Part shown: one piece after another, positions 3,993 to 11,334 of the stretch
Layout: each line of letters opens with the position of its first letter
Position numbering within the stretch: the first letter of the stretch is position 1
DNA from: Caldifarciminota bacterium
Lineage (GTDB): Bacteria; Hydrothermota; Tepidihabitantia; SM23-42
Direction of reading: 5' to 3'
Assembly (NCBI GenBank): GCA_020349965.1
Contig: CP070705.1
Location: 890,782 to 948,178, forward strand
Length of the DNA stretch: 57,397 bases
The notes under the pieces: generated by a model
The model's database searches: none
Told to the model about the DNA's origin: nothing
Seen by the model: only the letters and a program-made list of their open reading frames with translations
Made by a program: the position numbers and the translations under genes

Positions 3993-4004
3993 TACTCTCT
4001 CCGC

Positions 4005-5072
4005 TTATTTTATGATCTGGACGTAACTTTGATCGCCTAAGATGAATTTATGTGTTCTCGGTGATTCGCTGATCTGGTTGATGACGACATTCCTGCCTAA
4101 TATCGAGCGATCGATTCTCTTTTCGAGGTTACAGATCGTGGCGCCATCCATTATCACACTACACTCAACTTCGGAATTCTCAATCACTACATTATCACCG
4201 ATCGAAGAGAATGGTCCGATATAGGCCCGTGTGATTTTGGTATTCTCGCCAATTATTGCCGGGCCACGAATTGTGCTTTTGTCGACGATTGCACCCTTTG
4301 CCACTCTTACCTGACCATTGACCGTCGAGTCCACGATCTTGCCCTGATTATCTGAATCGATATCTTGCAGGATCAAAAGGTTCGCCTCGATTATATCCTC
4401 AGGCTTACCCGTATCTTTCCACCAACCCTTCACGGTCTGCGATTCAACCTTATAGCCGTTGTCAAGAAGCCATTGGATCGCATCGGTGATCTCGAGTTCA
4501 TTGCGCCAGGATGGTTTTATCTTGTCGATCGCCTTGAAGATCTCCTTGTCGAAGAGATAAATACCAACCAACGCAAGGTTGGAAGGCGGCTCTTTTGGTT
4601 TCTCGATCAATTTCCTCACGCATCCCTTTTCATCGATCACGGCCACGCCAAATTCCTGCGGATTATCTACTTCGGTCAGGAGAATGGACGCGTTAGGGTG
4701 GTTTTCTTCGAACTGATCGACCAATGAGCGGAGATCATCCTTCAGGATATTATCGCCGAGATACATTATGAATGGCTCGGTGCCCAGAAACTCTTTGGCG
4801 ATCTTGATAGCGTGGGCAAGTCCTAACGGCGCCTCTTGAGGAATATATTCGATGTTGATCTTCCACCGCTCACCATTGCCCAAGGTACGCATGACTTCTT
4901 CCTTTGTATCACCTACAACGACGCCAATCTTCTTTATTCCGATATTGACAAGAGTTTCGATCCCATAGAAAATGATGGGTTTATTGGCGACGGGTATCAG
5001 CTGTTTCGCACCGGTATAGGTCAATGGTCTAAGCCTTGTGCCAAAACCGCCGGCGAGTATCAAGCCCTTCAT
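4005..5072 (-). CDS. rmlA: Glucose-1-phosphate thymidylyltransferase, long form
   Basis: 355 aa. The N-terminal nucleotidyltransferase domain has the signature LAGGFGTRLRPLT and 'KQLIPVANKPII'. The C-terminal third is a left-handed beta-helix region ('IRGPAIIGENTKITRAYIGP'), the layout of long-form RmlA. It makes dTDP-glucose from dTTP and glucose-1-phosphate, the first step of dTDP-rhamnose synthesis. A promoter overlaps the end of rmlD and would give a leader of only about 3 nt, so this gene may be expressed both from rmlD read-through and from its own start. Confidence 0.95.
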   Translation of the reverse strand: MKGLILAGGFGTRLRPLTYTGAKQLIPVANKPIIFYGIETLVNIGIKKIGVVVGDTKEEVMRTLGNGERWKINIEYIPQEAPLGLAHAIKIAKEFLGTEPFIMYLGDNILKDDLRSLVDQFEENHPNASILLTEVDNPQEFGVAVIDEKGCVRKLIEKPKEPPSNLALVGIYLFDKEIFKAIDKIKPSWRNELEITDAIQWLLDNGYKVESQTVKGWWKDTGKPEDIIEANLLILQDIDSDNQGKIVDSTVNGQVRVAKGAIVDKSTIRGPAIIGENTKITRAYIGPFSSIGDNVVIENSEVECSVIMDGATICNLEKRIDRSILGRNVVINQISESPRTHKFILGDQSYVQIIK

Positions 5073-7341: not shown

Positions 7342-9204
7342 TTACTTCATAACCACAAACTCAACGCGACGATTCTTGGCCATGCCTTCAGGACTGTCAT
7401 TGGAGGCGACTGGCTTCGTCTCTCCGTACCCTCTCGCAATGAGACGGTCCGCATCGATATTGTGATTTAGCACAAGGTACTGCTTGACCGAACCGGCGCG
7501 ATCGTTCGAAAGGTTAAGATTGTACGCATCGCTGCCACGGCTGTCAGTATGGCCCTGGACCTCGATCTTAACGTCTGGATTGCCTTCGAAGACCATCTTT
7601 ATCGTCTTTGCCGCGCCATCGAGGACCGGATATGATTCCGGTTTTATATCTGACTTCGCGGTTTCGAAATAGACCTCGGGCAGGACGATCTTGAATTCCT
7701 TCTTGACCATCGCCACTTCAATCTCGAGTGTCTTCGCGGCTACGATATCCACCACTCTCTCATAGGGCAGATAGTTCTTGTCTTCGGCAACGACAGCTAC
7801 CTTGTAAGCACCTGGTGCCAATGTTTTTTCTATTCTTCCAGTAACCTTCTCAGCTGCCATATCGCCAATCGTGATCATACCGGTGACCGGCTTCTTCGTC
7901 TGAATATCCAGGACATTGACGATCAGCGTACCGACCTTGGGTATTGGCTTCAGGGAGATCGTGATCGGCGTCACTTCACCCGCTCTGACCAGTAGTCCGA
8001 CCTCATAGGGCTCGTAGTCGGCAGCGCTGACCTTAAGCTGATAAGGCCCAGGATCGAGGGTCATGAACCCGAACTGTCCACTTTCGTCACTATCCATTGA
8101 TTTTACGAGAGCGCCATCGGTGTATATCCCAACGTTCGCAATGAGGTTGTCGCCTGTTGTTTCGTCGACAACTTTACCGGCGATATCGCCAAAGACCGGC
8201 TCTGGTGAGAAATCGGTCGTGAATGCCCATCCGAGTATAACTGCCCACGGCGGTGCAGCACCCCAACCGGTCGCGATATTGAAACTGTCGGTTTGGTCGG
8301 TCGGGAAGTCACGCATGTTCTCACCTTCCCAGGCGCGGAAATCAAAAGCAAGATTGATATGCCAGTTTTTGCTTGGCCGGAAGCTTATTCCCGGAGTGAT
8401 ATATACGGCACTCGTTCCCCATAATGAATCGTCGAATACGGTTAACAACTGGTCTTTGCCGCTGTAGTCGACCGCACCTAGCTCGACGAACGGTATGATA
8501 CCCGGCGTATGGAGGCTCAATGCAACATTGTATATGCTTGCATTATTCCTGAGCCCGCCACCCTCGGCATTGCGGAGAACATAACCAAGGTTCAGATCAA
8601 ACTGAAGCATGCCAGTCTTTGCCGTCAACAACGCGACGCCGCCAAAATCCAGCGCATCGCTGCCGAAATATCTGAACACGCCACCGGGGTTTGTGTATGC
8701 TTCGTTGAATATCGGATAGTCCTTGACTTCGTCGCCGACCGTCGAGACATCGCGGTCCGAACCGGTCGGGAGTGATAAGAATGTGTACAATCCATACTTG
8801 ACCGACTCTCCGCCAAAACCAAATTTCAAACCCAGCTTCGTGTCACCAAATCCCAGACTGGCCCGGTTATTACCGGTCTCTTTGTAATCGATACCGTCAG
8901 CATGGAGAATCCCGGCGATGTTGAAGGAGAACCAATCGGTCATTGCGTATCCCAGATAAAGGGCCATATCTCCGCCACCATAGGTAGCATCCTGACCTGC
9001 TTGTGTATCACCGATCGTATCACCAGTGGGAGTCGCAAGGCGATCTTCGTAGAACCCCCTCATATACCATCCTAGATTGAAAGTTCCGGCTGATCCATTG
9101 CCTGCTGACATGGTACGGAACAGCCCCATAGTACCTTCATTGTTCGGCATGGCAAACGCGAGGGATGCCGCGACCAACAACAACACATATTTTTTTATTT
9201 GCAT
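7342..9204 (-). CDS. OmpA-family outer-membrane barrel with carboxypeptidase-regulatory-like domains
   Basis: 620 aa. Signal peptide MQIKKYVLLLVAASLAFA, then about 330 residues of alternating aromatic beta strands (predicted outer-membrane barrel). Next is a CarboxypepD-reg/PEGA-like region ('GDIAGKVVDETTGDN', 'PGPYQLKVSAADYEPYEV') and a second short Ig-like repeat. The C-terminal OmpA domain (about residues 505-620) has 'VQGHTDSRGSDAYNLNLS' and 'NRRVEFVV', which bind peptidoglycan in this family. The start is fixed by AGGAGG 5 nt before the ATG and the signal peptide. It probably tethers outer membrane to cell wall. A promoter and an unusually palindrome-rich region lie upstream. Confidence 0.92.
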   Translation of the reverse strand: MQIKKYVLLLVAASLAFAMPNNEGTMGLFRTMSAGNGSAGTFNLGWYMRGFYEDRLATPTGDTIGDTQAGQDATYGGGDMALYLGYAMTDWFSFNIAGILHADGIDYKETGNNRASLGFGDTKLGLKFGFGGESVKYGLYTFLSLPTGSDRDVSTVGDEVKDYPIFNEAYTNPGGVFRYFGSDALDFGGVALLTAKTGMLQFDLNLGYVLRNAEGGGLRNNASIYNVALSLHTPGIIPFVELGAVDYSGKDQLLTVFDDSLWGTSAVYITPGISFRPSKNWHINLAFDFRAWEGENMRDFPTDQTDSFNIATGWGAAPPWAVILGWAFTTDFSPEPVFGDIAGKVVDETTGDNLIANVGIYTDGALVKSMDSDESGQFGFMTLDPGPYQLKVSAADYEPYEVGLLVRAGEVTPITISLKPIPKVGTLIVNVLDIQTKKPVTGMITIGDMAAEKVTGRIEKTLAPGAYKVAVVAEDKNYLPYERVVDIVAAKTLEIEVAMVKKEFKIVLPEVYFETAKSDIKPESYPVLDGAAKTIKMVFEGNPDVKIEVQGHTDSRGSDAYNLNLSNDRAGSVKQYLVLNHNIDADRLIARGYGETKPVASNDSPEGMAKNRRVEFVVMK

Positions 9205-9246: not shown

Positions 9247-9274
9247 ATTATATCTGTAGTGCATAATAAGTCAA
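9247..9274 (-). promoter_or_regulatory. Promoter of the OmpA-family gene
   Basis: On the minus strand TTGACT, 16-nt spacer, TATAAT, giving a leader of about 36 nt that contains AGGAGG. Confidence 0.85.
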
Positions 9275-9449: not shown

Positions 9450-9484
9450 ATCATTCTATCATTCTGTCGATTGCCTAAATGATA
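9450..9484. promoter_or_regulatory. Operator-like palindrome, site 1
   Basis: A 35-bp site with ATCATT at one end and AATGAT at the other. It is identical at 30 of 35 positions to site 2 at 9810-9844. It lies just after the ArsR-type gene's stop codon and upstream of the OmpA-family gene, so the two copies flank the regulator gene. Confidence 0.6.
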
Positions 9485-9491
9485 GACTATA

Positions 9492-9797
9492 TCACGACCG
9501 AGTTTGGATGACCTCGACGAGTTGCTCGAGATCCTGCATAATGCGCCTGACCGGCCCGGCCTTGATCCAATAGTGGTGGTGCCGCCATGTCACTTCATAA
9601 CGGACAAGATCCAGGTTCCTCAACACGCGCAAGACCTGAGACACCGTGGCAATATTCACACCTAGAATATCGGCGAGTTCTTCTGGAGTCATTCTTCTTT
9701 CGTCGAGCAGGGTCAGAACCTCATAAGCCGTAGGATTACCCAGTGCGCGGCAGAGCCTCGAAGCACGGTACCGAATTTCAGGAATCCTCTTTTTCAT
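9492..9797 (-). CDS. ArsR-type winged-helix transcriptional regulator
   Basis: 101 aa. A winged helix-turn-helix spans about residues 10-85: 'RLCRALGNPTAYEVLTLL', the recognition helix region 'LGVNIATVSQVLRVLRNL', and the wing 'VRYEVTWRHHHYWIK'. The ArsR metal motif (ELCVCDL) is absent, so the signal is not obviously a metal through that site; the RHHHYW cluster is notable. The ATG at 9797 has TATAAT 5 nt upstream, predicting a leaderless mRNA. Near-identical palindromes lie on both sides of the gene, one overlapping its own promoter. This suggests autoregulation and control of neighbours. Confidence 0.88.
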   Translation of the reverse strand: MKKRIPEIRYRASRLCRALGNPTAYEVLTLLDERRMTPEELADILGVNIATVSQVLRVLRNLDLVRYEVTWRHHHYWIKAGPVRRIMQDLEQLVEVIQTRS

Positions 9798-9802
9798 GAG
9801 CA

Positions 9803-9830
9803 ATTATACATCATTTTATTATTTTGTCAA
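9803..9830 (-). promoter_or_regulatory. Promoter of the ArsR-type gene (leaderless)
   Basis: On the minus strand TTGACA, 16-nt spacer, TATAAT, 5 nt, ATG. The spacer and -35 lie inside operator-like site 2. Confidence 0.85.
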
Positions 9831-9844
9831 TTGCCAAAATGATA
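9810..9844. promoter_or_regulatory. Operator-like palindrome, site 2
   Basis: ATCATTTT ... AAAATGAT forms an 8-bp perfect inverted repeat around an 18-nt centre. The site covers the -35 and spacer of the regulator's own promoter and ends 18 bp before the -35 of the divergent gene at 9907. Confidence 0.65.
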
Positions 9845-9862
9845 AAACGAACAGAGGAGGGG

Positions 9863-9890
9863 TTGACTTGATGGCAAACTGAAGTACAAT
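9863..9890 (+). promoter_or_regulatory. Promoter of the secreted propeller-type gene
   Basis: TTGACT, 16-nt spacer, TACAAT, followed by a short leader with GGAGG before the ATG at 9907. It lies next to operator-like site 2. Confidence 0.75.
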
Positions 9891-9906: not shown

Positions 9907-11334
9907 ATGTATAAAAATTCAAGGTCTGTGTTTTACTGTAGCTTCATGGTCCTTCTTTTTTCTATCTCCTATGGCCAAAACATTCATTTCGTAGCCAATT
10001 CCGATTCGCCCGAAGCGACAGCATGCAATAACAGCCATAAGATCGCACTCAAATCCGGGGAAGGAACAAATGACACCATCAACGTCGTCTTTCAATCTTC
10101 TGACAGCGTGTACATTGCCGTGACGACCAACTGCGGGTACACATGGTCGACACCGGTCGCGTTCGGCCAGGGGAGATCTCCTGCCATCGATGTGAATCTA
10201 TTCGGATTTCGCCACGTAGCATGGCAGTCTCTCGATAACGAGATCTACTACGACTGCCTGGATGATTGGGCACCACCGGTCAACGTCAGTCAGTCCGCGG
10301 GGCTGTCAACATTACCCGATCTGGTCGCCGACTCCAGTGGAGTTATACATGTGGTATGGGTTGAGCAAATCGGTGGGTATAATCACATATACTACCGGAC
10401 TGCAATCGGTGGCGGTGTATCGAGCGATACAGTACGGATCAGCGGATACGGTTCGCCTGAGGCAACCTATGATCATCCATCGATCAGCATCTTCCACCCT
10501 GGCTACCGTCTATACGCTCTGTGGGAGTGTTACGATCTGCAGTGTTATTCACCATACCAGATCCATCTCCGTCACAAGGAAGGAACCTTATGGGACACGA
10601 CCAGAGTGTGGTCGCACTACTTACCGATGCGCCATCCGTCGATAGACTACGCGCATGGACAGATTTACGACACACTATCTTTTTGCTACGAAGATAGCAC
10701 AAGCGGCAATTTGGAAGCCACATTCTATGGAGGGAACGGTGGGGGGTATCAAACACAAGGGAATTCAACCTATCCCGTAGTCTCGACCGTTGGGTCAACA
10801 TGGAGCTACCTTTTCTGGCAAGAAGATTCAGCCGGTTCCAATGACATCTATTTTGACCTTTACTACTTCAGCTCTGGGTGGACCCAAGGGTCATTGAACT
10901 ATCCAGAATCAATTAGATACCCAAGCGTATGCGGTGCATATGTGGTGTGGACCCAGGGAGATAGCGATCCATACAGCATCTACCTCGCGGATTTCGGATA
11001 TCCCATAGGTATCGACGGAGCGGCGCAGGAACAACTTTTCGTGCTAACGGCATTTCCCAACCCTTTCAGCGAACGTACAACATTGACCATGGCAGGACCA
11101 ACGATGCAAACCGAGACACGTTTGAATATATACGATTCATCTGGACGATTAGTCACGGTCCTCGTTGCCGAGTCAGTGACATCTGCCCCGTTGATGGCGC
11201 AAAAGGATCAAAGATGCACTTTTATATGGGATGGATTGGATGCCACTGGGAAAAAAGTTTCTGCGGGGATTTACTGGGGTTGTCCGGCCAACAACCACGA
11301 TTATCCAACACTGAAGGTAATAAAGGTCAATTAA
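9907..11334 (+). CDS. Secreted beta-propeller-like protein with C-terminal sorting-type domain
   Basis: 475 aa. An N-terminal signal sequence ends near 'ISYGQN'. The body has repeated short blades such as 'SPAIDVNLFGFRHVAWQS', 'LPDLVADSSGVIHVVWVE' and 'HPSISIFHPGYRLYALWE', like sialidase/propeller repeats. The C-terminal about 90 residues start at 'AFPNPFSERTTLTM' and contain 'IYDSSGRLVTVLV', 'WDGLDATGKKVSAGIYW' and 'KVIKVN', the pattern of FlgD-Ig/type IX secretion C-terminal domains. It is expressed divergently from the ArsR-type gene from a promoter beside its operator. Substrate unknown; probably surface-exposed or secreted. Confidence 0.85.
   Translation: MYKNSRSVFYCSFMVLLFSISYGQNIHFVANSDSPEATACNNSHKIALKSGEGTNDTINVVFQSSDSVYIAVTTNCGYTWSTPVAFGQGRSPAIDVNLFGFRHVAWQSLDNEIYYDCLDDWAPPVNVSQSAGLSTLPDLVADSSGVIHVVWVEQIGGYNHIYYRTAIGGGVSSDTVRISGYGSPEATYDHPSISIFHPGYRLYALWECYDLQCYSPYQIHLRHKEGTLWDTTRVWSHYLPMRHPSIDYAHGQIYDTLSFCYEDSTSGNLEATFYGGNGGGYQTQGNSTYPVVSTVGSTWSYLFWQEDSAGSNDIYFDLYYFSSGWTQGSLNYPESIRYPSVCGAYVVWTQGDSDPYSIYLADFGYPIGIDGAAQEQLFVLTAFPNPFSERTTLTMAGPTMQTETRLNIYDSSGRLVTVLVAESVTSAPLMAQKDQRCTFIWDGLDATGKKVSAGIYWGCPANNHDYPTLKVIKVN

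Follow-up and report, generated by a model that had tools for sequence, protein, structure and literature searches.

The window analysed here, a 57,397-bp stretch of DNA (C1:890782-948178 of genome G000), is part of the single-contig, 2.30 Mb chromosome of an uncultured WOR-3 (Stahlbacteria) bacterium. It carries a gene for a small ArsR-type regulator that lies between two copies of one palindrome. What can be said most safely is that this gene belongs to a family of arsR genes that are self-bracketed and probably autorepressing, and whose second operator is part of the regulator gene. The explanation that we favour, and regard as fairly probable from the sequences, is an autorepressed ArsR with an operator at its promoter and a duplicate operator at the 3' boundary of the gene. 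A small dimeric protein of the ArsR fold would bind the upstream palindrome (O1) over its own -35 element and repress its own gene. The same protein would bind the duplicate (O2), which would be kept directly behind the stop codon as a part of the arsR unit, independent of the next gene.

Two palindromes bracket the arsR gene

The arsR gene (9492-9797, minus strand) encodes a protein of 101 amino acids (MKKRIPEIRYRASRLCRALGNPTAYE...) with an HTH_5 domain and a predicted ArsR/SmtB fold. O1 (TTATCATTTTGGCAATTGACAAAATAATAA; 9816-9845, minus strand) is located upstream of the gene, and O2 (CTATCATTTAGGCAATCGACAGAATGATAG; 9456-9485, minus strand) lies 6 bp past its stop codon. A sequence-only reading of the window had proposed that twin 35-bp palindromes at 9450-9484 (site A, corresponding to O2) and 9810-9844 (site B, corresponding to O1) flank an ArsR-type gene. 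This was confirmed. The two sites are identical at 30 of 35 positions (5 mismatches), and a search allowing up to 3 mismatches to their consensus returned only this pair in the window and no match in 100 shuffles. The gene between them contains the HTH_5/ArsR domain. In the palindromic cores, 13/15 dyads are paired in O1 and 11/15 in O2, and the axes are separated by 360 bp. O2 is conserved within the genus.

The arsR promoter (TTGACA-16-TATAAT; 9803-9830, minus strand) agrees with the consensus at 12/12 positions. Its -35 element (9830-9825) falls within O1, as had been claimed for site B, and this coverage makes autoregulation likely. The homologs likewise have a palindrome at the arsR promoter, which adjoins the -35 element instead of covering it in one of the paralog groups. 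The -10 element (9808-9803) ends 5 nt upstream of the ATG; since the spacing is similar in most homologs, the arsR genes of this family are predicted to yield leaderless mRNAs. In the window (9795-9808) and in the homologs, TATAAT mostly ends about 5-8 nt ahead of the start codon.

The arsR product scored 36.2 bits against the HTH_5 profile (Pfam cut-off 22), which places it in the ArsR/SmtB superfamily. Its AF2 model (pLDDT 92) displays the wHTH fold alone, and structure comparison of this model gave SmtB, CzrA and NolR as top matches (TM about 0.8). On the basis of the model, we are confident that the regulator is a small protein of the ArsR/SmtB fold. The scores against NF033788 (ArsR/SmtB metalloregulators; 47.5 bits, cut-off 55) and NF033789 (SdpR autorepressor family; 34.1 bits, cut-off 100) were both below the cut-off. 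The metal-ligand positions of SmtB are a D/H...H/E set in alpha-5. Neither this set nor an alpha-3 CxC is present in the homolog alignment, in which Cys16 alone is invariant. The family resembles the ArsR/SmtB autorepressors SmtB, CzrA, NolR and SdpR in its wHTH fold, small size, own-promoter palindrome and expected autoregulation. It differs from the SmtB type in these ligands and in its NCBIfam scores, and from the autorepressors in having a duplicate operator past the stop codon; a literature search for a precedent of such a site was negative.

The bracket is conserved across the family

Homologs of arsR were found in 38 of the 61 genomes searched, and the close ArsR family essentially occurs in a single order, apart from a few outliers. 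Conservation of the bracket was assessed by a motif-free test. Basically, the best palindrome upstream of each gene was determined, and a copy of it was then sought near the stop codon of that gene. A copy of the gene's own O1 (at least 21/30 positions) was present directly past the stop codon in 35 of 62 core homologs and in 1 of 486 control windows. In a distant, ancient paralog clade, twins agreeing at 19/24 positions or more were found in 11 of 20 genes, compared to 1 of 100 controls. The motifs of these distant twins are unrelated (e.g. GTTCGATAGTTGTACAATTGT), and the two copies have the same orientation in all cases. When 19 ArsR genes of other families were analyzed in this way, copy scores were 13-18 and none reached 19. 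The homolog counts are raw, relatedness being handled only via a tree of 82 rows. On this tree twins are present in every main clade, with a minimum of 13 changes, a count that takes in seven genes whose downstream site was judged by eye. The sequence-only reading had made its case depend on conservation of the sites in relatives, and the twin palindromes are indeed kept there. As relatives and distant paralogs keep the bracket with palindromes of their own, the second copy is part of the regulator gene rather than a switch of the neighbouring ompA gene. O2 is missing in 20 of the 62 homologs and is thus dispensable, a point against the favoured explanation.

The locus L041 (G011:C170) contains a tandem pair of near-identical self-bracketed arsR genes, 2.3 kb apart. 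In L051, L054 and L055, a group-2 arsR precedes a nitroreductase-like gene of 189-190 aa and follows Rnf-like membrane genes, so that the gene order is conserved. A group-2 arsR is also located before a 189-190-aa gene in L216, L217, L223 and L226, judged by next-gene length only.

O1 and O2 change in concert

O1 and O2 of the same gene are alike at 25.7/30 positions, compared to 19.1/30 in shuffled pairs; the same-gene value was reached by none of 10,000 shuffles. Mantel correlation with ArsR protein distance gave r = 0.57 for O1 and 0.54 for O2, and O1 correlated with O2 at 0.87 (0/2000 permutations each). Paralogs within one genome have different motifs. We infer that ArsR binds to both sites and represses its own gene; the case for cognate binding is built on this co-variation, part of which is also due to shared ancestry.

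The two sites are direct repeats. Where O1 is asymmetric, O2 repeats the asymmetry in the same orientation at 31 dyads and in the opposite one at 6. Considered gene by gene, the same orientation was better in 20 cases and the opposite in 5, with 10 ties. Such shared asymmetry goes beyond what a symmetric dimer requires, suggesting that O1 and O2 arise or stay alike through copying or gene conversion. The two copies of G005 are identical and share an unusually centred sequence. Comparison of G020 with G016 revealed that arsR is absent from G020 exactly between the copies: the flanks are of the G016 type, and the one remaining site has the sequence of the downstream copy. Among several 'empty' loci considered as precise excisions, only this one stood. 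In G010, G001 and G014 the precision of the arsR loss was not demonstrable. G026 was rejected, as this locus (L167, G026:C100) contains an arsR pseudogene with an internal deletion and retains both bracketing palindromes.

O2 follows the arsR stop codon and not the next gene

According to the sequence-only reading, ompA is controlled via site A, and both arsR and a divergent gene for a secreted protein via site B, so that one regulator coordinates two envelope genes. The OmpA-family gene (7342-9204, minus strand, 620 aa) is the gene next to arsR in this genus only. The secreted-protein gene (9907-11334, plus strand, 475 aa, C-terminal FlgD_ig-like domain) is a syntenic neighbour in most close relatives. 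In support of the proposal, members of the genus share the order secreted gene-arsR-ompA. However, each of the two genes has a conserved promoter of its own, located outside the sites. The ompA promoter (TTGACT-16-TATAAT; 9247-9274, minus strand) is located about 190 bp from O2, and this interval shrinks and grows among species. Site A is directly downstream of arsR. The secreted-gene promoter (TTGACT-16-TACAAT; 9863-9890, plus strand) adjoins site B as described, but is not covered by it. The two genes are putative targets at most. In Brucella, ArsR6 was shown by ChIP, EMSA and footprinting of the omp promoter to regulate itself and Omp25D (PMC8509827). The connection of an ArsR protein with an outer-membrane gene resembles the proposal for the window; here, the site lies away from the ompA promoter.

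The offset of O2 from the arsR stop codon has an sd of 6 bp, and the distance to the next gene ranges from 33 to 438 bp (sd 105 bp). In other genera the next genes differ, and judging by sequence features they are probably DUF5916-like, GGDEF-like, nitroreductase-like and others. O2 was still found at the arsR stop in five loci with a convergent next gene, for example an MscS-like gene with its stop codon 38 bp away (counts of convergent and tandem genes are approximate, since genes were called as longest ORFs and most of the genomes are MAGs). A perfect TATAAT follows O1 in 21/35 cases and O2 in 0/35, which is the background level; O2 has no promoter in these sequences.

The genome of the window was also scanned for further members of a regulon. 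One strong extra site (C1:682344) and one weak site were found, and nothing more. The strong site is upstream of a putative envelope gene, presumably DUF5916-like, as would be expected for an envelope regulon. However, it lies behind a phosphatase-like gene, an arrangement also seen in species in which the gene after the site is convergent. Among genes adjoining other palindrome copies there was no excess of signal peptides (27% vs 25%), which led us to discard the envelope regulon. Promoter position, variable interval and the different and convergent neighbours ruled out site A as an ompA operator. Altogether, we consider coordination of the two envelope genes by one regulator very unlikely.

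Possible functions of O2

Our first choice for the function of the duplicate operator is a protein-bound 3' boundary or roadblock against transcription out of or into arsR, which might tighten autoregulation. This tentative choice is based on the link of O2 to the stop codon, its indifference to the neighbour and its more frequent absence when the next gene is close. The median gap to the next gene was 49 bp where O2 is absent and 103 bp where it is present (p = 0.009), although this link may reflect lack of space. Cooperative binding is another candidate role. That O2 is a copied palindrome without a regulatory role appears somewhat unlikely.

A further function, already raised in the sequence-only reading, is DNA looping: ArsR would bridge O1 and O2 into a repression loop of roughly 360 bp, as in lac or lambda. 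Loops form at operator spacings of ~360 bp in known systems, and the two copies are spaced within a narrow range of 359-383 bp, which follows from gene length and tight offsets. However, helical phasing was absent (Rayleigh R 0.17 at 10.5 bp for 35 spacings; phasing may be less important at a distance of 360 bp), which leaves looping without support. Moreover, ArsR proteins are usually dimers without a known bridging domain, and the AF2 model consists of the wHTH fold only. We regard looping as unlikely. Several operators for one repressor, in or around its gene, are familiar from lac O2/O3, the E. coli purR operators and lambda OL/OR around cI. In contrast to these systems, the second site is found here directly past the stop codon across much of a protein family, promoterless and unphased.

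The position just past the stop codon would also suit an RNA hairpin, that is, a terminator or mRNA stabiliser merely resembling an operator. This candidate was rejected because O2 has no U-run, the Rfam search was without match and broken dyads showed no clear excess of G-U over A-C (32 vs 44 at solo 3' sites, 31 vs 22 at O2 of arsR). In addition, no terminator was called at O2, and a hairpin would leave the sequence identity of O2 and O1 without explanation. It is extremely unlikely. A phage origin was ruled out as well, a phage match being absent.

Solo copies of the palindrome

Matches to the motif of the window number 0-15 per genome. Out of 83 solo sites, 39 are located between tandem genes, 17 between convergent and 15 between divergent ones; a further 11 lie at contig edges and 1 inside an ORF. 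The gap types correspond roughly to their share of intergenic bases, with no promoter bias, and in tandem gaps the stop side is preferred (26/39 sites; p about 0.01). Such placement is odd, being unlike that of ordinary promoter operators, and speaks against the favoured explanation. The same is true for G017: the search of this 97% complete genome revealed no close group-2 ArsR gene, yet it has five group-2 palindromes with the identical core TCATTCTGGTAATTACCAGAATGA (L150, L152, L153, L155, L156). The strongest solo site in G000 (C1:682344-682371; L078, about 4000-4028) has its axis 47 bp behind the phosphatase-like gene and lies 260 bp ahead of the DUF5916-like gene. Sites at the corresponding position exist in G002, G004 and G005, and G001 and G003 have weaker counterparts; some of these sites are flanked by convergent genes. 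In G004 and G005 the site is behind the phosphatase-like ortholog, between convergent genes.

The solo copies bring up another origin of the bracket, in which the palindromes are a low-copy, dispersed REP-like element, arsR is the resident flanked gene and the twin arose via copying or recombination. In favour of this origin, the copies, of which a genome has up to 15, lie in intergenic DNA and are distributed over the gap types, convergent gaps included, according to length. Their direct-repeat arrangement with shared asymmetries and the precise loss of arsR in G020 also fit. On the other hand, profile matches of the flanked gene are to wHTH families only, and no recombinase was noticed among the arsR neighbours inspected in a non-systematic look. 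O1 is located at the arsR promoter, the motif differs between ArsR clades, REPs are present in far higher copy number, and the solo copies gave no demonstrable case of a new insertion. We judge this origin quite unlikely. In REP/RAYT systems, a gene is flanked by two palindromes whose relatives are dispersed in intergenic DNA, and hallmarks are a Y1 tyrosine transposase, inverted flanking palindromes and >100 copies per genome (PMC2817692). Here, a palindrome-flanked gene with dispersed intergenic relatives is likewise found, but it encodes a regulator without a transposase domain, the copies are direct and they number 0-15 per genome. The features of REP/RAYT are thus mostly absent. A transposase-free counterpart, in which ArsR is self-bracketed by a private palindrome and operator copies are spread and homogenised intergenically by recombination, is of similarly low probability. 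If it were true, the transcription-factor genes of one lineage would diversify carrying matched operator pairs along.

For the favoured explanation of an autorepressed gene with a duplicate operator, the putatively matched protein-operator pairs, at least 35 core and 11 distant ones, form a natural data set for the evolution of DNA specificity. The family can also be used to test the role of a 3'-end binding site as a boundary, a loop or a recombination relic. Finally, some genes other than arsR lie between two palindrome copies: L112 (G011, 671 aa), L134 (G022, 971 aa), L161 (G024, 541 aa) and L064/L139 (G016, DUF5916-like).
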